The notes below the pieces were generated by a model. It did no database searches and was not told the DNA's origin. It saw nothing but the letters and a program-made list of their open reading frames with translations. Of a DNA stretch of 35,037 nt, positions 7,618 through 25,696 are shown one piece after another; the stretch's first letter is position 1; the number at the start of each line of letters is the position of its first letter. Origin of the DNA: Chitinophagaceae bacterium (GTDB taxonomy: Bacteria > Bacteroidota > Bacteroidia > Chitinophagales > Chitinophagaceae); contig JAIXOJ010000190.1 in NCBI GenBank assembly GCA_027486835.1, forward strand, positions 1 to 35,037, read 5' to 3'. Position numbers and translations under genes: made by a program.

Positions 7618-8586
7618 TTAACCAATAATTTCAATTTTATATTTGGAGGGGTTCACTGTGCTGGTGCTTTTTATTATTAAGAAGGGGTGTTTAGGGTCAC
7701 CCAAGGTAGCAGGGTCAATGAGGATGGTTTGGTCAAATGGTACCGTAATGGCTTTGGTAGTGGGGTCGCCATTGGGGGTATCGGATAGATAAATGACAAA
7801 TTCGGAGTTATCGCTTTCATTCGTGGCCACAATTTCTACCTTGTCGGCAAACAAACGATTACTAATCATCTTTTTATCGCCAAAATCTAATTGACCTTCA
7901 ATTACGGTGTGCTTTTCATTAGCCCGAGGGTACAGCAATGAAAAATCGAAAATGGCGGCAGCATGTGCCACATTGCCAGGGGCTTGTGCTGCCACTACAT
8001 GCACAATTTTGGTAAGCACCAATTCCACATCGGTTACGTGTACATCTCTCACCTTCTTGGCATCGGCCACCGAGCCTTTCTTCTTTTCTTGTACATCCCT
8101 AGACTGAGTCCATTGGCTTTCAAAAGCAACCAACTTGTCAAAAAGGGGTTTACCTAATTCCTTTTCATATCTTATAGCAGCAGCATTAATACGATTGGTT
8201 AATACGGGCATATCTGTTTTTGCGGGGTTAGAATATTCTTCTAAACCATTGGGATAAAACTCAAGAAATCTAGGATTTCCTTCTCCGCCTAATGCACGGG
8301 CTATAAAGGGTTTTTCTTCCGACATAGCTTTAGAAAAACTTTTCAACATTTGGTCGTTGGATAAAGTAGCCCCTCTTTTGATGGCCTCGCTAGTGTCCAC
8401 CACGCCTAGGTCAGTGCCTAATATGGTATTAACATCGGTTAGTTCCTTAATGATGTCAGTATTAGCACCGCTCCCATTGGCTATAATGAGGTTGTTGAGT
8501 GTGTTTTGTGCAAACGCATAGAGGCGGGCACTAATAATTTTTGGACTATCAAACAGGTTTTCAAATAATTTATCTGCATTAAGCAT
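7618..8586 (-). CDS. Unrecognised 322-aa protein, helical N-terminus and beta-rich C-terminus
   Basis: I do not recognise this family. I start it at ATG 8586 (MLNADKLFENLFDSP). The frame is open upstream to 8718, but that extension is AT-rich and not protein-like. There is no signal peptide or membrane segment, so it is probably cytoplasmic. Residues 1 to about 220 look mostly alpha-helical, with runs such as AAAIRYEKELGKPLFDKL and a charged stretch EKKKGSVADAKKVRD. The last hundred residues look beta-rich (KMISNRLFADKVEIV, SEFVIYLSDTPNGDP, HPFLIIKSTSTVNPSKYKIEIIG). It is a monocistronic unit with its own strong terminator, transcribed toward the protease operon. Function is unknown; a structural or scaffold role is only a guess from the lack of catalytic motifs. 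Confidence 0.8.
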   Translation of the reverse strand: MLNADKLFENLFDSPKIISARLYAFAQNTLNNLIIANGSGANTDIIKELTDVNTILGTDLGVVDTSEAIKRGATLSNDQMLKSFSKAMSEEKPFIARALGGEGNPRFLEFYPNGLEEYSNPAKTDMPVLTNRINAAAIRYEKELGKPLFDKLVAFESQWTQSRDVQEKKKGSVADAKKVRDVHVTDVELVLTKIVHVVAAQAPGNVAHAAAIFDFSLLYPRANEKHTVIEGQLDFGDKKMISNRLFADKVEIVATNESDNSEFVIYLSDTPNGDPTTKAITVPFDQTILIDPATLGDPKHPFLIIKSTSTVNPSKYKIEIIG

Positions 8587-8833
8587 AAGAGCAAAATTTA
8601 GTGGTAAATAAAAAAATTTAAGTGGATGATTTGGAGGGATAATTTTCAAATTATATGCCAACGCAAACGATTGCTGACAATTTTTCAGTTTACTGGTATT
8701 AAAATTACATTTTACCAAGAATCAGCGCGGTACTTTGATGGATGGCTGAAAAGTTGACATGAAAAATTGTCGTATGCTTGTCTTTACTCGTTTTCAAGAT
8801 GCTATATCGAATATACGCCACCGACACCTATAG

Positions 8834-9490
8834 AAAAAGTACATCAAAACGAGCGGAGGTCTGGTAACTTCATAAGATAGGTTCGCCAAAATGAGCGAAA
8901 CCTTGTATTTCCATCCCAGAGCTATGCAAAACTGGCGGGTGGCTGGTAGTTTCCTACCAGAGGCTGGCCGATACGGCGAGTATCTGGTAATTTTCTAGGA
9001 TAGGCTCGCCGAATCGGCAGGCGTCTGGTAACTTCCTAGGATATACTGGCCGAATCGGCAGCGGTCTGGTAACTCCCTAGGATATACTGGCCGAATCGGC
9101 AGGGGTCTGGTAACTTCCTAGCATATACTGGCCGAATCGGCAGGGGTCTGGTAACTTCCTAGCATATACTGGCCGAATCGGCAGGGGTCTGGTAACTCCC
9201 TAGCATATACTGGCCAAGTCGGCAGGGGTCTGGTAACTTCCTAGCATATACTGGCCGACTAGGCAAGGGTCTAATAACTTCCTAGGATATATTGGCCAAG
9301 TCGGCTGGGGTCTGGTAACTTCCTAGCATATACAAGCCGAATCGGCAGGGGGCTGGTGACTTCCTAGCATATACAAGCCGAATAGGCAGGGGGCTGGTAA
9401 CTTCCTAGGATATACTGGCCGAATAGGCAGGGGGCTGGTAACTTTCTAGCATATACCGGCCAAGTTTGCAGGGGGCTGGTAGCCCCTTTG
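8834..9490. repeat. Intergenic tandem array, about 16 units of exactly 41 bp
   Basis: The sequence repeats every 41 bp without a single indel: unit starts fall at 8875, 8916, 8957, 8998, 9039, 9080, 9121, 9162, 9203, 9244, 9285, 9326, 9367, 9408 and 9449. A partial unit precedes the first. Each unit carries GGTCTGGTAACTTCCTAG and then CATATACTGGCCGAATCGGC, with a short odd-centred palindrome GCCGA-A-TCGGC. Central units (9039-9285) are nearly identical and the left-hand units are the most diverged. There are no variable spacers, so it is not a CRISPR. The 41-bp unit is not a multiple of 3 and contains stops, so it is not coding. It fills most of the 1.1-kb gap between the gene at 7618-8586 and the plus-strand island. 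Function is unknown. Confidence 0.95.
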
Positions 9491-9683: not shown

Positions 9684-10535
9684 ATGACATTAGTAATTGC
9701 CCATAAAGTAGGGAACCACATTTCTCTTTCGTCCGATTCAAGAATAACATTTGGTTCTGCTGGATATATTGATTATGGAATAAAAATTTTTACAGTTCCT
9801 GTAAAAATATACTCGCCTACCGACTCTGAAACAAATATCACAGACCTTTTTTATGATTATAAATTGGGACTTGCTATCGTAGGAAGTGCAATGAATTCAT
9901 ACACAGTTAAGGAATCTGTTTATGAAATGCTTCAAAACTTACAGTTCATCCCTGGCTACACAGACTTATCAATGGACGGGATTGCTGGTTTAGTATTCAT
10001 AGTTTTCAATAAAACAACTCACGACTTTGGACAACTTATGAGAGACAATGGAATGAGTATTTTAATTCTTTCAGGCTTTTGCCCAGATAAAGAAAAAATT
10101 AGGTTATTTAAGTTTTATTGTGACACTTCAACCTTTCCAATTCGACCTGACTATGAAGAAATTTTAAAGACTGATGGTATTGAATTTTTTGGAAGTGGAG
10201 GAGAAGAGGCCAAAGCAATACATAATGACAATTCTTCATTGACACCTTTACATATCGTTAGACAAGTAATCAAAGAGGGTAAAGTTGCCACTGTAGGTGG
10301 TGGACTTCAATATGGTGAGTTTCAAAATAATAACTTTAAGATATTTGGAATAGCTGACTTCACACTAAATGACGATGGCACTTTTAAAGAAGATACATAT
10401 AATTTAAGGGGAATCAATTTGTACAAAGACGATTTCGAAAGAGAGAATGACGGTTTTCATATAGCTTATACATTCAAAACTCCTTTTGAGAATGAAAGAG
10501 ATGAAATATTTAAGCGACAAATTGGAGAGATATAG
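9684..10535 (+). CDS. Proteasome-like Ntn-hydrolase (HslV/20S beta-subunit fold), stand-alone
   Basis: The 283-residue product begins Met-Thr. If Met is removed and Thr counted as residue 1, the sequence places Asp at 17 (SSDSRITFG), Thr at 21, Gly at 23 and Lys at 33 (YGIKIF). These positions match HslV and proteasome beta subunits (Thr1 nucleophile, Asp17, Lys33). Two further family landmarks appear: GLAIVGSAMNSYTV (residues 62-75), matching the GSAAD/GGTAD segment, and FFGSGGEEAKA (169-179), matching the GSGG block that carries the accessory serine. VGGGLQYGEF (204-213) resembles the later glycine turn. The protein is about 100 residues longer than HslV (about 175). No HslU-like ATPase lies nearby. 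It is probably a self-compartmentalising or solitary threonine peptidase in the cytoplasm; substrate unknown. The gene is AT-richer than its flanks, suggesting transfer. The fold call comes from motif spacing alone. Confidence 0.75.
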   Translation: MTLVIAHKVGNHISLSSDSRITFGSAGYIDYGIKIFTVPVKIYSPTDSETNITDLFYDYKLGLAIVGSAMNSYTVKESVYEMLQNLQFIPGYTDLSMDGIAGLVFIVFNKTTHDFGQLMRDNGMSILILSGFCPDKEKIRLFKFYCDTSTFPIRPDYEEILKTDGIEFFGSGGEEAKAIHNDNSSLTPLHIVRQVIKEGKVATVGGGLQYGEFQNNNFKIFGIADFTLNDDGTFKEDTYNLRGINLYKDDFERENDGFHIAYTFKTPFENERDEIFKRQIGEI

Positions 10536-10694
10536 AAAAACTACTGCCAACTATTAGATTTGAATTTTTAGGCTACACAATAAAATACATAAACAATCGT
10601 TTTTAGATGTGCTTCAGATATCCATTAACTGAACTTGTACTACTAAACTAGGCAAACATTTTCCTTTGGCAGTAATAATAAATGACAATCATAA

Positions 10695-11387
10695 ATGACA
10701 GAGAAAAAAGTAAGAATTAAAATTCCGCGAGAAAATAAAGTAAGAGCAGAACTACAAAAGGAGATTGGTTCTGTTTGTCCATTTTGTGATAATTCAGAAG
10801 TAGGTCATTTTGAAATTCATCACATAGACGACAATCCTTCAAACAATGATTATAAAAACTTAATTTTTTTGTGCCCAATATGTCATTCAAAAATCACAAA
10901 AGGAGACATTTCTCAAACAGAGGTTTTAAAAAAGAAAATTGACATTTTGACAACCAACAATAAGTCAGAGAATTCTAACGGAAAAGTAATAAACTTCAAT
11001 TCGAAAATTGGGAACGCTATTGTTGGTGACAATAACCAAATATCAATAAAACAAACAAAAAAAACAGTTGAAAAATATCCACTAGGTTGTCTTGGCTATG
11101 ATACAGTTAAAGCGAATTATGTAGGATACTTAATACAACGCTATAATGAATATAAAGAAAGCGAGGTTGGAAAAGAAAAAATTAAGTATGGAGTATTTGG
11201 TTCTATGCTGAAAAAACAATTCAAAATAGGAGTTACAAGGACAATTTATAATTTGCCCATAGAACGTTTTGAAGAACTCGTAAATTTTATTCAAAATAAA
11301 ATCGATTCAACAAAAATTGGGCGAATTAACAAAAATAAACACAAGAATTATTCCTCATTTGAAGAATTCAAAAATCGAGTTGGGTAG
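10695..11387 (+). CDS. HNH nuclease-like protein with C-terminal phage-regulator-like domain
   Basis: The 230-residue product has a zinc-binding HNH fold at about residues 25-75: CPFC, then FEIHHIDDNPSNND, then NLIFLCPICHSKI. The HH pair, the Asn of the motif and the four cysteines are all present, so it should be an active metal-dependent nuclease. A central segment, NSKIGNAIVGDNNQISI (about 102-118), has the alternating Gly/Asn pattern of short beta-strand oligomerisation motifs found in some defence-associated proteins (inference). The C-terminus, about residues 130-225, contains YLIQRYNEYKE and IYNLPIERFEELVNFIQNKI, a pattern like the ORF6C-type domain of phage antirepressors; that likeness is weak. 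It follows the Ntn-hydrolase gene by 159 bp on the same strand. Cytoplasmic; possibly a phage-defence or phage-derived protein. Confidence 0.75.
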   Translation: MTEKKVRIKIPRENKVRAELQKEIGSVCPFCDNSEVGHFEIHHIDDNPSNNDYKNLIFLCPICHSKITKGDISQTEVLKKKIDILTTNNKSENSNGKVINFNSKIGNAIVGDNNQISIKQTKKTVEKYPLGCLGYDTVKANYVGYLIQRYNEYKESEVGKEKIKYGVFGSMLKKQFKIGVTRTIYNLPIERFEELVNFIQNKIDSTKIGRINKNKHKNYSSFEEFKNRVG

Positions 11388-11592: not shown

Positions 11593-12291
11593 ATGGAACA
11601 GAATAACGAAATACGTTGCCCTAAATGCAACTCAACCCAACTAACGGCAAATAAAAAAGGATTTAGTGGAACAAAAGCTGTTGTAGGTGGATTACTAACT
11701 GGTGGTGTTGGACTTTTAGCAGGCACTATTGGAAGCAATAAAGTTATAATAACTTGCCTTGCATGTGGTAAGGAATTTAAACCAGGAGAAGGCAAAACAG
11801 CAGTATCTGAACAAGTAGAACAGAAAGAAACTACTACAACAAAAATGGCCGAATTAAAAAAAGAACTAGACGAAAGAAAAAGAATATTTTCTTCTGGTGA
11901 AAATATTGACGATGCACTTCATAAAATTTTAAGAGAAGGATTTGTAAGGGGAGCTGTCAATCACTACAAAACGACAATGAAAGTTAGTCAAGAAACTGCT
12001 GAAGAATATGTAGAAAAGTTTATCGTTGATAATAATTTGACGGACAAAGTAAAACGAAAAGGTTGCTTTGTTGCGACTGCTTGCTATGGTGACTATAATT
12101 CACCAGAAGTAAAAATACTAAGACATTACAGAGACTCTAATTTACTTAAATCTTATTATGGGAAAGTGTTTGTCCAGACTTATTATATTTTATCTCCACC
12201 AGTTGCTTACTTAATTTCAAAGTCAGAATTTCTAAAGAAAAACATAAGACTTTATATTTTACAACCCATTATTCAAAAAATAAACAAATAA
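11593..12291 (+). CDS. Zinc-ribbon, CFI-box (CFVATACYG) protein
   Basis: The 232-residue product starts with a zinc ribbon: CPKC at residues 9-12 and CLAC near 55-58. Between the two cysteine pairs lies a glycine-rich hydrophobic segment (AVVGGLLTGGVGLLAGTIGS) that could insert in or contact membrane. A charged coiled-coil-like stretch follows (MAELKKELDERKRIF, about 85-100). The C-terminal 80 residues match the CFI-box domain: GCFVATACYGDYNSPEV, LRHYRDSNLLKSYYGKVFV, then YYILSPPVAYLI. That domain is widespread in bacteria, usually C-terminal, and of unknown function. It comes 205 bp after the HNH gene on the same strand. The three plus-strand genes share low GC but are not tightly spaced, so a shared operon is possible rather than clear. 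Confidence 0.8.
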   Translation: MEQNNEIRCPKCNSTQLTANKKGFSGTKAVVGGLLTGGVGLLAGTIGSNKVIITCLACGKEFKPGEGKTAVSEQVEQKETTTTKMAELKKELDERKRIFSSGENIDDALHKILREGFVRGAVNHYKTTMKVSQETAEEYVEKFIVDNNLTDKVKRKGCFVATACYGDYNSPEVKILRHYRDSNLLKSYYGKVFVQTYYILSPPVAYLISKSEFLKKNIRLYILQPIIQKINK

Positions 12292-12615
12292 ATGTCATAA
12301 AATGACGACTAAGAGAACACCCTCTCTAGATTTTCGTTGCGTCTAAGCATAATTCTCAACAAGCTATGTAAGGCAGATCGCCTAAAAAAAACTGGGTTTT
12401 CTACTTCCTTTTTCAATTCATGTAGATTCATCTTGACTTATAAATAAACCATCAGCAATATTGCAATCAAAGGGCTTTGGTTATCGACTGACTTCGCCGA
12501 AGTGAACAGGCGTTTTCACGCTTTCTGAGATAGGCAAAAAGGTTTTTACTTTTATTCAAATCAGCTTTTTGGACTTTTCTCCAAATTGTATTGTACCCTA
12601 AAATTACTTCACATC
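12292..12615. other. Intergenic region between CFI-box and PL6 genes
   Basis: No gene is visible. It contains a short inverted repeat ACTTCG-C-CGAAGT around 12490-12502, too small to call. No perfect TAnnTTTG promoter element was found upstream of ATG 12616. Confidence 0.3.
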
Positions 12616-14091
12616 ATGAATCGTATTTTTCTCACACTACTCTTCGTTATTTTTTTGGGTAATGCCCTCCATGCCAAAACCTTTCTTGTAAGCAGCGAAG
12701 CTGAAATGGCCCAAGCTATGCTAACCGTACAACCGGATGACGAAGTGGTATGGAAAGAGGGCAGTTACGCCGATGTAATCATAGACTTTTGTCCCAAACA
12801 TTCGGGTACGCTTGGGCATCCCATAACCCTAAGGGCGCAAACTGCGGGTAAAGCTGTTTTTACAGGAGCCTCCCAACTGTTTTTTTCTGGTAGCTACTTG
12901 GTAGCATCTGGATTGTTGTTCAGCGGCACTTGCACCCTTACCAATGGACATGATGTGGTGAGTTTTGCACCCAGGAAAAAAGGAGGGACTAATGCGGAGT
13001 ATTGCCGCCTTACCAATTGCGCCATCTTGAATTACACCCCAACAGACCGACAAGTGAACCAAAACTATATTGGGTTAATGGGCAGGTATAACGAAGTGGA
13101 TCATTGTTCATTTGAGGGTAAAACCAATCAAGGGCCTTATTTGGTGGTGCGTTATGCTACTGACAACAATTTTGTGGCTGGTAGCGACGCTGCACCCTCC
13201 ACCCATCACCACATACACCACAATTATTTTGGCTACCGAACCCTGCCTTCGGACAATGGCGGTGAAGACATGCGCATTGGCGATAGCAAAACCTCTTTTA
13301 CCCATGGGTTTAACCTGATAGAATACAACTATTTTGAAGAACACCGAGAAGAAGCGGAGGTTATTAGCAATAAAAGCTGGAACAATGTGTATCGGTTTAA
13401 TACATTTTACCATTGCGATGGCGCATTGGTGCTTCGCCACGGGCAGCGTTGCTTTGCTTACGGTAATTATTTTGATGGGGGCAGCGGTCGCAAAACCAGT
13501 GGTGGTATCCGAGCCATTAATCCCAATCAAACCCTGTTTAACAATTATATGGACAACCTCGAAGGGGGTGCTAAACCACTAAAAGCCCCCATTTGCATCA
13601 TGGATGGACTAGAAAACAGTGCCATTTTTGAGTATTTCCCGGCAGATAGTTGCGTGATGGCCTTTAATACGGTGGTCAATAGTGTAGGTCCTGCCATCCG
13701 TATTGGGGTAGGCAACAGCAAGGGCAAAGCGTTGGTTGCGCCCAAAAACGTGCTGCTTGTGGGCAATCTGTTCATCAACAGTGTAGGAAAAGAGGAAAAA
13801 GTGGCCGTGCTAGAAGATAAACAAGTACAGTTGGGTTTATCCGCAGATAATGCATTTACCAATGGCTTGAGTGATATAGCTACTGGTTTTACCACCGTAA
13901 AAACCAAGCATATCACAGAAAATAAAGGATTCAAATACTTAAAACCCACTAAATCCTCGGCTACAACCACCATCATTCACCTCATTAATAGTCGCCTTGC
14001 GGAACAACAGATTCAATTAACAGAAAAAGACATTACCACCTTTAACCCTGCTTGGAAATTATCCAAAACCGATGTGGGGGTGAGGTTTTAG
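12616..14091 (+). CDS. Polysaccharide lyase family 6 (alginate/chondroitinase B-like)
   Basis: The 491-residue product starts at ATG 12616, directly before signal peptide MNRIFLTLLFVIFLGNALHA. The body is a right-handed beta-helix with PL6 landmarks. Glu246 and Glu248 (EEAEVISNKS) would bind calcium, Lys253 would be the catalytic base and Arg274 (LVLRHG) the catalytic acid. These four have the same spacing as Glu243, Glu245, Lys250 and Arg271 of Pedobacter chondroitinase B. The NGGEDMRIG segment (214-222) supplies the conserved Asn. Family members cleave alginate or dermatan sulfate by beta-elimination; which substrate applies cannot be read here. There is no T9SS sorting domain, so the enzyme is probably periplasmic. 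No SusC/SusD pair or other lyase is nearby, so this is not part of a complete utilisation locus within the window. Confidence 0.9.
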   Translation: MNRIFLTLLFVIFLGNALHAKTFLVSSEAEMAQAMLTVQPDDEVVWKEGSYADVIIDFCPKHSGTLGHPITLRAQTAGKAVFTGASQLFFSGSYLVASGLLFSGTCTLTNGHDVVSFAPRKKGGTNAEYCRLTNCAILNYTPTDRQVNQNYIGLMGRYNEVDHCSFEGKTNQGPYLVVRYATDNNFVAGSDAAPSTHHHIHHNYFGYRTLPSDNGGEDMRIGDSKTSFTHGFNLIEYNYFEEHREEAEVISNKSWNNVYRFNTFYHCDGALVLRHGQRCFAYGNYFDGGSGRKTSGGIRAINPNQTLFNNYMDNLEGGAKPLKAPICIMDGLENSAIFEYFPADSCVMAFNTVVNSVGPAIRIGVGNSKGKALVAPKNVLLVGNLFINSVGKEEKVAVLEDKQVQLGLSADNAFTNGLSDIATGFTTVKTKHITENKGFKYLKPTKSSATTTIIHLINSRLAEQQIQLTEKDITTFNPAWKLSKTDVGVRF

Positions 14092-14258: not shown

Positions 14259-15905
14259 TTATTCTTTGATTAACTGCCCTTGCCAATGTGCGTATTCTGT
14301 TTGCACGGTGAGGGTGTAACTTCCTTTGGCTAAACCGGCAAGCCTAATACCGGGTTTGTTGTTGCCAATCTGTAGGCTCAAGGATTGTTGTTTCACAATC
14401 TGACCTGCGCTATTAACCACTTGCAGCATGGCTTTTCCCGCTTTGGGGGATGTAAACTGAATGTTTACAACGTCTTTAACTGGATTAGGAGTAATGGAGA
14501 ATAATGAATGATGAATGGAGAATTGTACCGACACTGTTTTGCTGTAAGTGCTGCTGCCGTCTTTGTCTATGCTTTGGAGGCGGTAGTAAGATATGCCCTG
14601 TAGCGGTGCATTGTCTGTATAGCTATAATTGTTGCTATAGTTGCTATTGCCAGCAGCTTGCAGGGTGGAAATAGTGGTGAAATCATCTTTGCCATTCCTG
14701 CTGCGCTGAAGGTTGAAATGGCTGGTGTTGGTCTCGTTGGTGGTTTGCCAATTAACCGCTACTCGCACCCCTTCAAGGGATGGGGGCGTGGGTTGTGCGG
14801 TGAAGCTGCTGAGGGTTACAGGGGTAGGGGTGCTGCCATATTTGGCTACATAGCATTTTCCATTGCTGTTTACGAACGTACCCGCAGTATATACATTGCT
14901 GCCTCCATCGGTGGTAAGGGTATAGATAGTTCCAGAAAACGTGCCGCCAAGTTGACTCCAAATGCTGCCGTTCCATAGGAAAACATCGCCGTGATAGCCC
15001 GCAGCATACACATTTCCGCCAGCATCGATGGTAAGGGTATAGATACCACCAATAAACTTTGAAGCGTTGGTGCCACCGAGTTCGCTCCAACTGCTGCTGT
15101 TCCATTTCGCTACATAGCAGATCCCATTCCCGTTCTTAAAAGAGCCCGCAGCGTACACATTTCCGCCCGCATCGGTGGTAAGGGTAACGATTGCATCATT
15201 AAACGTACTAGCATTGATACCACCGAGTTCGCTCCAGCCGCTCCCGTTCCATTTGGCTACATAATATTTCCCATTGCTGTTTGTGAAATAGCCCGCAGCA
15301 TACACATTACCCCCAGCATCGGTGGTAAGGGTTTGGATACCATAACTTCCATTAAACATAGAATTGTTAGTACCACCGAGTTCACTCCAATTGTTGCCGT
15401 TCCATTTGGCTACATAGTAGTTCCCATTGTAATTCTTGAACTGGCCTGCCGCATACACATTACCACCCACATCAGTAGTAAGCCTAGTGATAGCATTATT
15501 AAACGTAGAATTGTTAGTACCACCGAGTTCGCTCCAAGTGCTGCCGTTCCATTTGGCAACATACTGTTTCCCAATGCCGTTTGTGAAATTGCCGGCAGCA
15601 TACACATTACCACCCGCATCGGTGGCAATGGTAACGATGCTACTATTAAACATAGAATTGTTAGTACCGCCAAGTTCGCTCCAACTGCTACCATTCCATT
15701 TGGCTACATACTGTTTACCATTGCCGTTCATACGTCCGCCCGTAGCATACAAATTACCGTTTTTGTCTTTGGTAAGGCAACCGATAAAGTTGTTAAAATC
15801 ACCGTTCGGAGAATTGCCCAATTGTGCCCATTGCGCATTGGCGTTGCTAACTAAAAAACTAAGGGCAATAAGCGCTGCCCACAACCGAAGGGTAAACTTA
15901 TACAT
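14259..15905 (-). CDS. Secreted YVAKWNG-repeat protein with T9SS sorting domain (7 repeats)
   Basis: The 548-residue product has a signal peptide (LRLWAALIALSFLVSNANAQ). About seven copies of a 49-residue unit follow. The unit reads YVAKWNG-x-x-WSELGGTN-x-S-x-FN, then a variable strand, then TTDAGGNVYAAG-x-F-x-NGNGK. The regular beta/Gly pattern suggests a beta-propeller or a related beta-repeat fold (inference). An FN3-like linker follows (TPVTLSSFTAQP, YYRLQSIDKDGSS), then a type A sorting domain (SITPNPVKDVVNIQF to GSYTLTVQ). The FN3-like part contains an insert encoding PPSLEGVR, rich in G/C, that its siblings have only in decayed form or lack. It is one of four related genes here (others at 16017, 19965 and 22967). 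Probably an exported surface protein; ligand unknown. Confidence 0.88.
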   Translation of the reverse strand: MYKFTLRLWAALIALSFLVSNANAQWAQLGNSPNGDFNNFIGCLTKDKNGNLYATGGRMNGNGKQYVAKWNGSSWSELGGTNNSMFNSSIVTIATDAGGNVYAAGNFTNGIGKQYVAKWNGSTWSELGGTNNSTFNNAITRLTTDVGGNVYAAGQFKNYNGNYYVAKWNGNNWSELGGTNNSMFNGSYGIQTLTTDAGGNVYAAGYFTNSNGKYYVAKWNGSGWSELGGINASTFNDAIVTLTTDAGGNVYAAGSFKNGNGICYVAKWNSSSWSELGGTNASKFIGGIYTLTIDAGGNVYAAGYHGDVFLWNGSIWSQLGGTFSGTIYTLTTDGGSNVYTAGTFVNSNGKCYVAKYGSTPTPVTLSSFTAQPTPPSLEGVRVAVNWQTTNETNTSHFNLQRSRNGKDDFTTISTLQAAGNSNYSNNYSYTDNAPLQGISYYRLQSIDKDGSSTYSKTVSVQFSIHHSLFSITPNPVKDVVNIQFTSPKAGKAMLQVVNSAGQIVKQQSLSLQIGNNKPGIRLAGLAKGSYTLTVQTEYAHWQGQLIKE

Positions 15906-22966: not shown

Positions 22967-25696
22967 TTACTCAACCACCAATTGCTTCACCCCTATTCCT
23001 TCCAAATTCAACCAATAGATTCCTTTTGCTAAACCTTGCAGGTTGATTGGAAAACTATTATTTCCAGCAGGGAATGTTTGCTTTTGTTTAAGGCATGGCT
23101 TGCCTTCGGCGTTGCTGAGTTGGTATTGTATGGTTTGTGGTTTGGATAGATGAATAGAAACAGTTGTAAATTCTTTTGCTGGGTTTGGACTTAAAGTAAT
23201 CGGTTGTAAGTGGTAGGTATTTGGTATAGAAACCGACACTATTTTGCTATAGGTGAAGCTGCCATCTTTGTCTATCATTTTTAAACGGAAAAACCTCACC
23301 CCATGCCCTTCGTCCCCGCCCCTATCCCCAGAAGGGGAACTAAAAGTAAAAGGAACTTCAAACGCATAATTATTTGCCCCAGAACCTACTGCTTTTACAG
23401 TGCCTTTTGCCGAGAATGTTTTGCCATCGCTGCTTTGTTCTACTATAAAGTGGCTGCTGTTTACTTCGGTGGCAGTTTGCCAATTAAGTGCTACTTGCAC
23501 TCCTTCCAGTGATTGAGGCGTGGCTTTTGCAGTAAAGGACGTAAGGGTTACAGGTGTGGTGGTATTGCCGAATTTGGCCACATAACGGGTTGAATAGTCA
23601 ACATTTTGCAATGTAAAATTTCCTGCTGCGTATAGGCTACCGCTAGCATCAGTTAACAAGCATCCGATAGTACTGTTGAAAGTAGAAGTATTAGTGCCAC
23701 CTACCTCGGACCACGAACTCCCATTCCATTTCGCTACATAACCGCTGCTACCGTTGCTAAAAAAACCCGCTGCATATAGGTTTCCGCTAGCATCAGTGGA
23801 CAAGCTTAGTATTCCATTATTAAAAGTAGAAGTATTGGTGCCGCCTACCTCGGACCACACATTCCCGTTCCACTTTGCTACATAATACTTGCCGCTACTA
23901 TTTCTGAAATCCCCTGCTGCGTATAGATTTCCATTAGCATCAGTTGACAAAATATTTATGCTACTATTAAAAGTAGAAGTGTTTGTCCCGCCTACCTCTG
24001 ACCAAATACTCCCGTTCCATTTCGCAACGTAATTTTTTCCATTACCGTTCTTGAAACCACCCGCAGCATATAGGCTTCCGCTGGCATCGGAAGCCAAGCT
24101 GAGTATACTACTATTAAAAGTAGAAGTATTGTTGCCACCTACCTCTGACCATAGACTCCCATTCCATTTCGCAACGTACTGTTTATTGTTGGCGTTAGTG
24201 AACCATCCAGCTGCGTAGAGGTTTCCACTGGCATCGGTGGATAAGGCCGCTATAGTACTTTTAAATGTGGAAGTATTGATACCTCCTACCTCTGTCCAGG
24301 CACTCCCGTTCCATTTCGCTATATATTTATTGCCGTTGCTATTGGTTATAGAACCTGCAGCATATAGGTTTCCGCTAGCATCGGTGGATAAGCTAGATAT
24401 AACATTATTAAAAATAGATTTATTTGTACCACCCACCTCAGACCACTTGTTACCATTCCAATTTGCTACATACTGCCTGCCGCTGTCATTAGTAAAATTC
24501 CCTGATGCATATAAGCTTCCAGCATTATTGGTTGATAAGCACCAAATAGCACCATCAAAAATGGAAGTGCCTACCTCTGAAAACATACTTCCGTTCCATT
24601 TCGCTATATAATTCTTGCCGCTTCCGCTGTAGAAAGATCCTCCCGCGTATATGCTTCCCGAGGCATCAGATGATAAGCATTCTATATTACCGTTAAAAGT
24701 GGAAGTATTTGTCCCGCCTACCTCAGACCAAGCACTCCCATTCCATTTCGCTACATACTGTTTGCCGCTGCCATTGGTGAACCGCCCAGCTGCATATACG
24801 TTTCCACTGTCATCCGTGGACAAGCTGAAAATACTACTATTAAAAGTGGAAGTGTTGGTGCCGCCTAACTCAGACCAAGCACTCCCGTTCCATTTTGCTA
24901 CATGGTTATTTCCGCTGCCGTTGGTAAAATACCCTCCAGCGTATAAGTTTCCGCTGGCATCGGTGGACAAGCTGTTTATAAAATTGTTAAAAGTGGAAGC
25001 ATTGATGCCGCCTAACTCACTCCACATACTCCCATTCCATTTGGCTACATATCTCTTGCCGCTGCCGTTGGTGAAATTCCCTGCTACGTATAAGTTTCCA
25101 CCAGGATCAGAACACACGTTGCTTATCACACTATTAAAAGTGGAAGTATTGGTGCCGCCTACCTCACTCCACGTACTCCCATTCCATTTGGCTACATATA
25201 GCTTGCCGCTGCCGTTGATAAAATTCCCTGCTGCGTATAAGTTTCCACTAGGATCAGTACACAAGCTGTTTATATAACTGTTTAAAGTGGAGGTGTTGGT
25301 GCCGCCTACCTCTGACCAAGTACTCCCGTTCCATTTCGCTATATATTGCTTGCCGCTGTTGTTTTTGAACCATCCTGCAGCGTATAGGTTTCCGTTGCCA
25401 TCGGTAGACAAGCTGTTTATAATACTATTAAAAGTGGAAGTATTGGTGCCGCCTACCTCACTCCATGTGTTGCCGTTCCATTTCGCTACATAACATTTGC
25501 CGTTGCTGTTGGTGAAATCCCCTGCTGCATATATATTACCGCTGTTGTCTTTTGTTAGACATTGGATCGTGTTCGAAAAGCTACCGTTATATATTGGATA
25601 ATTCCCTACAGGATTCCATTGGGCTTGCGCTGAGTTCATTACTAAAAAACACAAGGCTACCAAACCCACCAAAACCCGAATAACATTCTTTTTCAT
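22967..25696 (-). CDS. Secreted YVAKWNG-repeat protein with T9SS sorting domain (13 repeats)
   Basis: The 909-residue product has a signal peptide (VLVGLVALCFLVMNSAQAQ) and thirteen copies of the 49-residue unit. Copies are very alike (YVAKWNGS-x-WSEVGGTNTSTFNS, LSTDASGNLYAAG), more so than in the gene at 16017, so recent expansion or homogenisation is likely. One copy is shortened (MFSEVGTSIFDGAI). The FN3-like linker contains two inserts, PQSLEGVQ and SPSGDRGGDEGHG. The second is encoded by a G/C-rich palindromic stretch (23298-23338). The sorting domain reads TLSPNPAKEFTTVSI to GIYWLNLEG. The sequence before it (SIPNTYHLQPIT) differs from the other three siblings and is encoded by a different 7-bp repeat. 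Surface or secreted; ligand unknown. Confidence 0.88.
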   Translation of the reverse strand: MKKNVIRVLVGLVALCFLVMNSAQAQWNPVGNYPIYNGSFSNTIQCLTKDNSGNIYAAGDFTNSNGKCYVAKWNGNTWSEVGGTNTSTFNSIINSLSTDGNGNLYAAGWFKNNSGKQYIAKWNGSTWSEVGGTNTSTLNSYINSLCTDPSGNLYAAGNFINGSGKLYVAKWNGSTWSEVGGTNTSTFNSVISNVCSDPGGNLYVAGNFTNGSGKRYVAKWNGSMWSELGGINASTFNNFINSLSTDASGNLYAGGYFTNGSGNNHVAKWNGSAWSELGGTNTSTFNSSIFSLSTDDSGNVYAAGRFTNGSGKQYVAKWNGSAWSEVGGTNTSTFNGNIECLSSDASGSIYAGGSFYSGSGKNYIAKWNGSMFSEVGTSIFDGAIWCLSTNNAGSLYASGNFTNDSGRQYVANWNGNKWSEVGGTNKSIFNNVISSLSTDASGNLYAAGSITNSNGNKYIAKWNGSAWTEVGGINTSTFKSTIAALSTDASGNLYAAGWFTNANNKQYVAKWNGSLWSEVGGNNTSTFNSSILSLASDASGSLYAAGGFKNGNGKNYVAKWNGSIWSEVGGTNTSTFNSSINILSTDANGNLYAAGDFRNSSGKYYVAKWNGNVWSEVGGTNTSTFNNGILSLSTDASGNLYAAGFFSNGSSGYVAKWNGSSWSEVGGTNTSTFNSTIGCLLTDASGSLYAAGNFTLQNVDYSTRYVAKFGNTTTPVTLTSFTAKATPQSLEGVQVALNWQTATEVNSSHFIVEQSSDGKTFSAKGTVKAVGSGANNYAFEVPFTFSSPSGDRGGDEGHGVRFFRLKMIDKDGSFTYSKIVSVSIPNTYHLQPITLSPNPAKEFTTVSIHLSKPQTIQYQLSNAEGKPCLKQKQTFPAGNNSFPINLQGLAKGIYWLNLEGIGVKQLVVE

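Follow-up and report, generated by a model that had tools for sequence, protein, structure and literature searches.

A diverged family of proteasome-type hydrolases, rare and partly mobile, with a possible part in genetic conflict

The window analysed here, a 35,037-nucleotide stretch of a Chitinophagaceae contig, encodes at positions 9684-10535 (+) a 283-residue protein that almost certainly has an intact active site on a proteasome-type fold, and that belongs to a rare, patchily distributed and partly mobile family. Our main reading, to which we give a probability of roughly 0.55, is that this protein is a diverged proteasome-type N-terminal-nucleophile (Ntn) hydrolase whose single gene makes up an accessory and in part mobile module, and that it acts by the mechanism proposed below. 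Defence genes stand near several of its relatives, a neighbourhood pattern that is suggestive but not proven, its control being weak.

Active site, family and fold

The gene is a single open reading frame with an ATG start whose product opens with Met-Thr and has no propeptide. Counting the Thr after the initiator Met as 1, the protein carries Thr1, Asp17, Thr21, Gly23 and Lys33 in the proteasome register, as the initial annotation had claimed, together with Arg19, and the segments GSAMNSYTV and GSGG are present exactly as quoted there. We call this register proteasomal because HslV proteins of Bacteroidota share the same residue positions, with Asp17, Thr21 and Lys33 in 14/14 and Gly23 in 11/14 of them (the 14 are those readable by motif among 25 fetched loci, and Thr1 is 14/14 by construction of that motif). 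The protein is also longer than HslV, which counts 171-175 residues from Thr1, although the excess measures about 110 residues and not the approximately 100 first given.

Sequence profiles placed the protein nowhere among named families. No profile of Pfam, NCBIfam or PADLOC-DB 2.0.0 matched it at E<=1, so the search against the proteasome family PF00227, which had been put forward as a check, returned nothing for it. The same profile had no match across the protein's own genome, unlike 45 of the 61 genomes sampled from the phylum, and when the Anbu protein of G005 was used as query, matches were found in 3 of 99 genomes, with neither the window protein nor its own genome among them. The exception was phrog_16034, a PHROGs family to which that resource assigns no function, which matches residues 4-229 of the window protein (E 3.9e-12) and 7 of the 11 family members scanned (best E 4.5e-196). 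Three of these 11 gave weak PF00227 matches (best E 0.0047), and two matched phrog_1040, the peptidase HslV family (best E 0.0085).

We collected 15 members, 13 of them core members and two (G084 and G1079) doubtful. In Bacteroidota, in the sense of the genome collection used, these are the window protein and those of a Chlorobiaceae MAG, MAG RH-23may17-678 (L025), Bacteroidetes 46-16, Taibaiella soli, G707, G1042, G1069, G084 and G1079; the others come from Enterobacter, E. coli, Vibrio, Azoarcus and Ruegeria. They are not all independent, since the 46-16 and Taibaiella members are near-identical. The nearest relative found is that of G1069 (36.6% over 243 aa), and the Vibrio, Azoarcus, Ruegeria, G084 and G1079 members were reached through intermediates or profiles, tblastn with the window protein at 1e-3 missing them. 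The two doubtful members match weakly, G084 in two pieces (E 1.1e-11 and 4.5e-04) and G1079 across 37 profile positions (E 7.3e-04), and may be sister families. Left out before counting were L003-L006 (E 5.3e-04 to 8.9e-04), of which the one ORF inspected, that of L003, resembles MraY by eye, and L010 and L020, which have stops in the match.

With the Met counted, T2, D18, K34, G67, G170, G206 and Q209 are invariant in 15/15 members, and the first 11 members shared all of these and also C133; G205, C133 and a Trp at position 7, where the window protein has His, occur in 13/15. Identity to the window protein is roughly 15-37% where measured, and the invariance of Thr1, Asp, Lys and Gly67 at this distance makes the residue pattern more than chance. 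The combination that characterises proteasome-like families (Thr1 or Ser1, Asp17, Lys33 and an oxyanion Gly) is thus found in every member, although the exact numbers 17 and 33 vary because loop lengths differ, Asp lying at 17-22 (17 in 8/15) and Lys at 33-39 (33 in 6/15).

In the window, all on the plus strand, the codon of Thr1, the proposed nucleophile once Met is removed, is at 9687-9689, the Asp17-Ser18-Arg19 codons are at 9735-9743, the Lys33 codon is at 9783-9785 and the codon of Gly67 (Met counted), a putative oxyanion Gly that aligns with the Gly of the HslV FAG motif, is at 9882-9884. Further on follow the GSGG block (residues 170-173, 10191-10202), the VGGGLQ motif (residues 204-209, 10293-10310) and a C-terminal part past the core (residues 230-283, 10371-10532), in which model confidence is low from residue 240. 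Two of these sites vary in a way that would fit a catalytically inactive scaffold like the proteasome alpha subunits: residue 19 is Arg in 12/15 and something else in three (Cys or Lys in Ruegeria, G707 and G084), and the residue after Gly170 is Ser in 7/15 and Asp in 8/15. Against such a scaffold, the Thr1, Asp, Lys and Gly67 positions stay fixed over very diverged members, and we consider it exceedingly unlikely; judged by its residues, the window protein is very probably catalytically active.

The fold was approached through two AlphaFold2 models with different lead sequences. That of the window protein, from a five-sequence input (pLDDT 66.5, pTM 0.69), orders its strands and helices as a proteasome subunit does, with helices H1 at 69-85, H2 at 97-122, H3 at 173-182 and H4 at 188-197, and drops below pLDDT 50 at residues 21-29, 203-205 and 240-283; the other, led by a relative, reached pLDDT 70.5 and pTM 0.70. 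Both have the conserved beta-sheet core and helices H1-H4 that are a trait of proteasome-like families, at moderate model confidence. When compared with the PDB by Foldseek, the best 50 matches of the window model were all 20S proteasome or Anbu entries (top E 1.1e-06; Anbu entries 5lox at 2.8e-06 and 5nyw at 4.6e-06), and the best 50 of the relative's model were all proteasome entries (top E 2.3e-08). TM-scores of both models are modest, 0.33-0.61 over the matches listed, and identity between the window protein and its best 50 listed matches is 11-18%. Matches at E<=0.001 also came from nine predicted viral proteins that are unnamed or uncharacterized.

At the level of sequence, phmmer and the family profile found no proteasome among PDB sequences. 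Profile-profile comparison was weak (family against HslV, E 0.00016; family against Anbu, E 0.00036), and so were its yardsticks, HslV against Anbu giving 0.25 and 0.054 and the reversed family against Anbu 0.46. The structural comparison that the initial annotation had recommended points, from two models, to a proteasome-type Ntn fold, and neither of the outcomes it had named as damaging, a fold of another kind or freely varying Thr, Asp and Lys, turned up.

Likeness to known proteasome-like proteins

A lengthened hairpin sets the family apart. In the 13 core members the catalytic Lys and Gly67 are 30-35 residues apart, as compared with 15 in G084, G1079 and three HslV proteins, which leaves 15-20 additional residues between strands S3 and S4; in the window this stretch, from Lys33 to the putative oxyanion Gly, occupies 9786-9881 (+), with model strands at 33-43 and 55-67. 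Insertions between S3 and S4 are described for connectase, PMI-5 and PMI-6, that of connectase contributing to its specificity, in Fuchs et al. 2021 (PMC8665760). The window family shares an insertion at this place with all three, the comparison with PMI-5 and PMI-6 being by description only. In PMI-6 the insertion consists of two helices (PMC8665760), whereas a beta hairpin is predicted in the window family. As for the link between H3 and H4, the other trait compared with PMI-5 and PMI-6, it is short in the window model and longer in some members.

The insertion raises the alternative that the protein, like connectase, is a protein ligase (transpeptidase) and not a protease, since 13/15 members carry it at the site of the connectase specificity element (PMC8665760). 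However, connectase is described there as having neither H1 nor H2, both of which are present in the models of the window protein and its relative, and the predicted hairpin again differs from a pair of helices; we regard a ligase of this kind as very unlikely.

Among the better-known proteins, Anbu has the same Met-Thr start without propeptide, the S-D-(S/T)-R motif, the fold and no dedicated ATPase. It differs in its operon, whose ATP-grasp, transglutaminase and alpha-E genes were not among the neighbouring ORFs of the window gene (Pfam, NCBIfam), and in that the S3/S4 insertion belongs to the window family. A C-terminal helix, to be compared with the coiled-coil H5 of Anbu, is modelled at 269-280 in the window protein, at pLDDT below 50, and at 277-299 in the relative. 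In peptidase assays Anbu hydrolysed no member of a standard peptide set (PMC5666114). HslV shares the register of T1, D17, T21, G23 and K33 and the fold class, but the window protein is about 110 residues longer, has no PF00227 match, has Arg19 where 14 HslV proteins have Gln, and carries the S3/S4 insertion. The 20S proteasome beta subunit provides the best Foldseek matches of both models and has the same Thr-Asp-Lys set; it differs from the window protein, which has no propeptide and beside which no alpha-subunit gene was seen. The window family is a diverged family of the kind described by Fuchs et al. 2021 (PMC8665760) and may be one of their 22 new proteasome-like families; for those, the authors report that neither genomic context nor co-occurrence hinted at a function.

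Distribution, mobility and defence neighbours

Members of the family are few and scattered. Not counting the window's own genome, the gene was found in 3 of 393 genomes from the taxonomic family (one stop-ridden hit left aside), in none of 12 from the genus, in 3 of 394 from the class (with the doubtful G1079 in addition) and in 1 of 394 from the phylum sample (four weak hits left aside). Among 5426 E. coli genomes, four have it. Several members are borne on plasmids, typed as conjugative in Enterobacter, where the gene adjoins an integrase, and in Vibrio, as mobilizable in Azoarcus and as non-mobilizable in Ruegeria. Both E. coli copies inspected lie within an integrated element (L029 10110-22187; L030 10110-22189) that brings its own genes for an integrase, a primase, ssb, a capsid, a decoration protein and a terminase small subunit, and the member is the second gene behind the integrase, 18 bases past an HTH gene.

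This place in the E. coli element, like the plasmid copies in Enterobacter and Vibrio, would suit a gene that acts for the mobile element, against competing phages or host defences, and not for the host cell. Against this idea, tblastn with three different members found no homologue in 50,697 phage records, and Bacteroidota loci such as G084 place the gene among Type I restriction genes; we think it quite unlikely. The same distribution bears on another alternative, a peptidase of the Anbu or uncapped-proteasome type that would remove damaged or unstructured proteins as a stress or housekeeping task and whose island location would be incidental. In its favour, Anbu is among the best Foldseek matches, the G707 member sits amid ordinary genes by eye, and PMC5666114 describes Anbu and its operon as lacking an ATPase partner. 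A rare and patchy family carried on plasmids and a satellite-like element is unlike a housekeeping gene, however, and with the Anbu operon genes missing beside the window gene we find this alternative unlikely.

Two further observations concern these mobile copies. The E. coli element interrupts a lambda-like prophage inside the gene annotated as its major capsid gene, and the element's own capsid protein is related to the interrupted one (44.7% to the right piece and 32% to the left piece when the two are compared apart). On the Vibrio nigripulchritudo plasmid the conserved Met-Thr start corresponds to an ATC codon (L013 10001-10003) about 6 bases after AAGGAG; the annotated start is a GTG that lies 42 bases later and would leave out Thr1, and the plasmid copy of a second Vibrio strain is annotated as truncated, with 177 aa.

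At 6 of the 15 loci a recognised defence gene or system lies within about 7 kb of the peptidase gene, and the defence genes beside it differ at each locus. A Type IIG restriction enzyme stands upstream in the Chlorobiaceae MAG, with one gene in between. In Vibrio, PDC-M27 A, B and C are directly upstream and a CBASS cyclase with a Cap15-type 2TM effector directly downstream. L025 has an AIPR gene, again with one gene in between, on a 3.6-kb contig; G1042 has a retron-type reverse transcriptase (RT) 1.1 kb downstream, the system being known here from the RT gene alone; and G1069 has LmuA, LmuB and LmuC (Lamassu) 2.3 to 6.8 kb downstream. The G084 member lies in a same-strand run of HsdM-like, DUF262, 539-aa, HsdS-like, peptidase, SatD-like, DUF3307 and HsdR-like genes, in which HsdM, HsdS and HsdR were assigned by eye, Type I methyltransferase and specificity models matched in the pooled scan, and SatD is below the Pfam cut-off. 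A DUF262 protein (NsnA, 9.1e-60) is 7.7 kb away from the gene on L028, a viral contig of the E. coli type. No named defence system was recognised, by eye or scan, near the window gene or those of G707, Azoarcus and G1079. The neighbours in Enterobacter, Ruegeria, Taibaiella and 46-16 were judged by eye or by the pooled scan only, with Enterobacter, Azoarcus, Ruegeria and 46-16 outside the PADLOC scan.

Proteins with an R-x4-H motif, which occurs in HEPN RNases, adjoin the peptidase gene in the Chlorobiaceae MAG and G1069 and lie one gene away in Taibaiella (L022 7194-8678, L011 6894-8117, L068 10210-11016). BLAST shows no similarity among them (the best E for two different ones is 0.27), and Pfam gave them no significant match.

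As a control, 88 neighbour proteins from six loci were set against 90 proteins from six round-number regions of the same contigs. Both sets comprise non-overlapping ORFs of >=110 aa, with none dropped for size and the first open stretch at either end skipped; neighbours outside this pooled set were picked by eye. At E<=1e-12 the neighbour proteins gave 173 PADLOC models (the best 25 of the 173 families are listed, with per-protein attribution for 10 proteins) and the control proteins 5, a contrast that overstates the difference because several related models match one protein. Counted by protein, it becomes at least 7/88 near the gene against at most 7/90 in the control. The former are the RT, LmuA, LmuB, LmuC and DUF262 proteins, vouched for individually, and two proteins known from the pooled scan, a Type I methyltransferase and a specificity subunit; the control matches are mad3 (three members), mad8, PDC-M66A, PDC-M72A and TPR. 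By locus, 3/6 have a recognisable system or a retron-type RT, the control matches not being placed by locus.

Because of this recount by protein we lowered our estimate for a role in phage or mobile-element conflict from even odds to somewhat short of even. The initial annotation had guessed at a defence or stress unit, and a defence setting is partly borne out through relatives elsewhere, with the 6/15 loci and the weak control, and not through the window itself. Defence islands also hold unrelated mobile cargo.

Proposed mechanism and setting of the window gene

Our best reading is a threonine protease or ligase that matures itself, works without ATP and travels as accessory cargo. The Met-Thr start suggests that methionine aminopeptidase would remove Met1 and thereby expose Thr1, as PMC5666114 reports for Anbu. 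Thr1 would then act with Asp17, Lys33 and the oxyanion Gly to form an acyl-enzyme with a protein substrate, a chemistry to which the conserved residues point. The enzyme would have no dedicated AAA+ unfoldase and would act on exposed segments, a step we propose because no ATPase partner recurs beside the gene. The lengthened S3/S4 hairpin would confer selectivity, as we infer from the position of the insertion alone, making limited cleavage or ligation of particular proteins likelier than bulk degradation; selective action is, on this ground, a reasonably good bet. Finally, the neighbourhoods suggest that the protein could be an effector or regulator that, beside other defence systems, takes part in conflicts with phages or other mobile elements.

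The claimed lack of an adjacent ATPase is supported by Pfam, which recognised none, HslU included, among the four ORFs scanned around the window gene. ATPase-like neighbours do occur in relatives: a divergent AAA_16/STAND-type ATPase gene is adjacent on the Enterobacter plasmid, G1079 has a small P-loop protein, and the Vibrio neighbour is a helicase that is part of PDC-M27. These are unlike one another, and a recurring ATPase partner was not accepted.

The window gene may encode an unrecognised defence protease. In its strongest form, the idea is of a single-gene bacterial immunity module, carried in defence islands, plasmids and satellite-like elements, that without an ATPase would use a gated Thr1 site to cut or ligate a single, specific protein of phage or host; this we hold to be doubtful, having marked it down slightly because of the same by-protein recount of the neighbourhood control. 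If true, it would be a new enzyme class in bacterial immunity and, to our knowledge, the first bacterial case of a proteasome fold employed in defence, and it would suggest that some proteasome homologues serve conflict and not protein turnover. A literature search, which is weak evidence of absence with preprints and most subscription papers outside its scope, found, among the papers listed, none that seemed to report a defence role for such proteins. For a family of the kind described by Fuchs et al., a functional lead is offered by the Type I restriction, Type IIG, Lamassu, CBASS and retron-type RT neighbours and by the cargo of the E. coli element.

Around the window gene, the AT-rich island previously claimed is borne out, with three genes at 29-33% GC (9684-10535, 33%; 10695-11387, 29%; 11593-12291, 33%) between flanking genes at 40-47% (7618-8718, 40%; 12586-14091, 45%; 14259-15905, 47%). 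The second of the three (10695-11387, +) encodes an HNH protein (PF01844, E 2.2e-05; weak PADLOC matches to PtuB, 9e-06, and ZorE, 9.4e-06), and the third (11593-12291, +) a CFI-box-CTERM protein with CxxC motifs (NF041770, E 7.6e-23). Either had been put forward as a possible recurring partner of the peptidase. In tblastn against 18 stretches at 14 other loci, some of them short (L025 has 3.6 kb), a similar HNH gene appeared in just one stretch, that of the doubtful G1079, and the CFI-box gene in none, so that a conserved unit with either was rejected. The G1079 HNH (L070 15609-15836) is 64% identical over 78 aa to that of the window and lies about 5 kb from the peptidase gene.

A reading of the island as an integron-type gene cassette array was also considered, and a repeat search with folding of the intergenic stretches recognised no repeated attC-like element. 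An inverted repeat, ACTGCCAA ... TTGGCAGT (window 10542-10675), encloses most of the DNA that separates the peptidase gene from the HNH gene. A 41-base tandem array (8983-9481; 12.2 copies, 88% matches) lies between the left flank and the island and ends about 200 bases upstream of the peptidase gene. Downstream of the island, the gene at 12586-14091 encodes a chondroitinase B family protein (PF14592, E 2.6e-77), and two minus-strand ORFs contain long coding tandem repeats of 147 bases, at 14994-15758 and 23622-25533.
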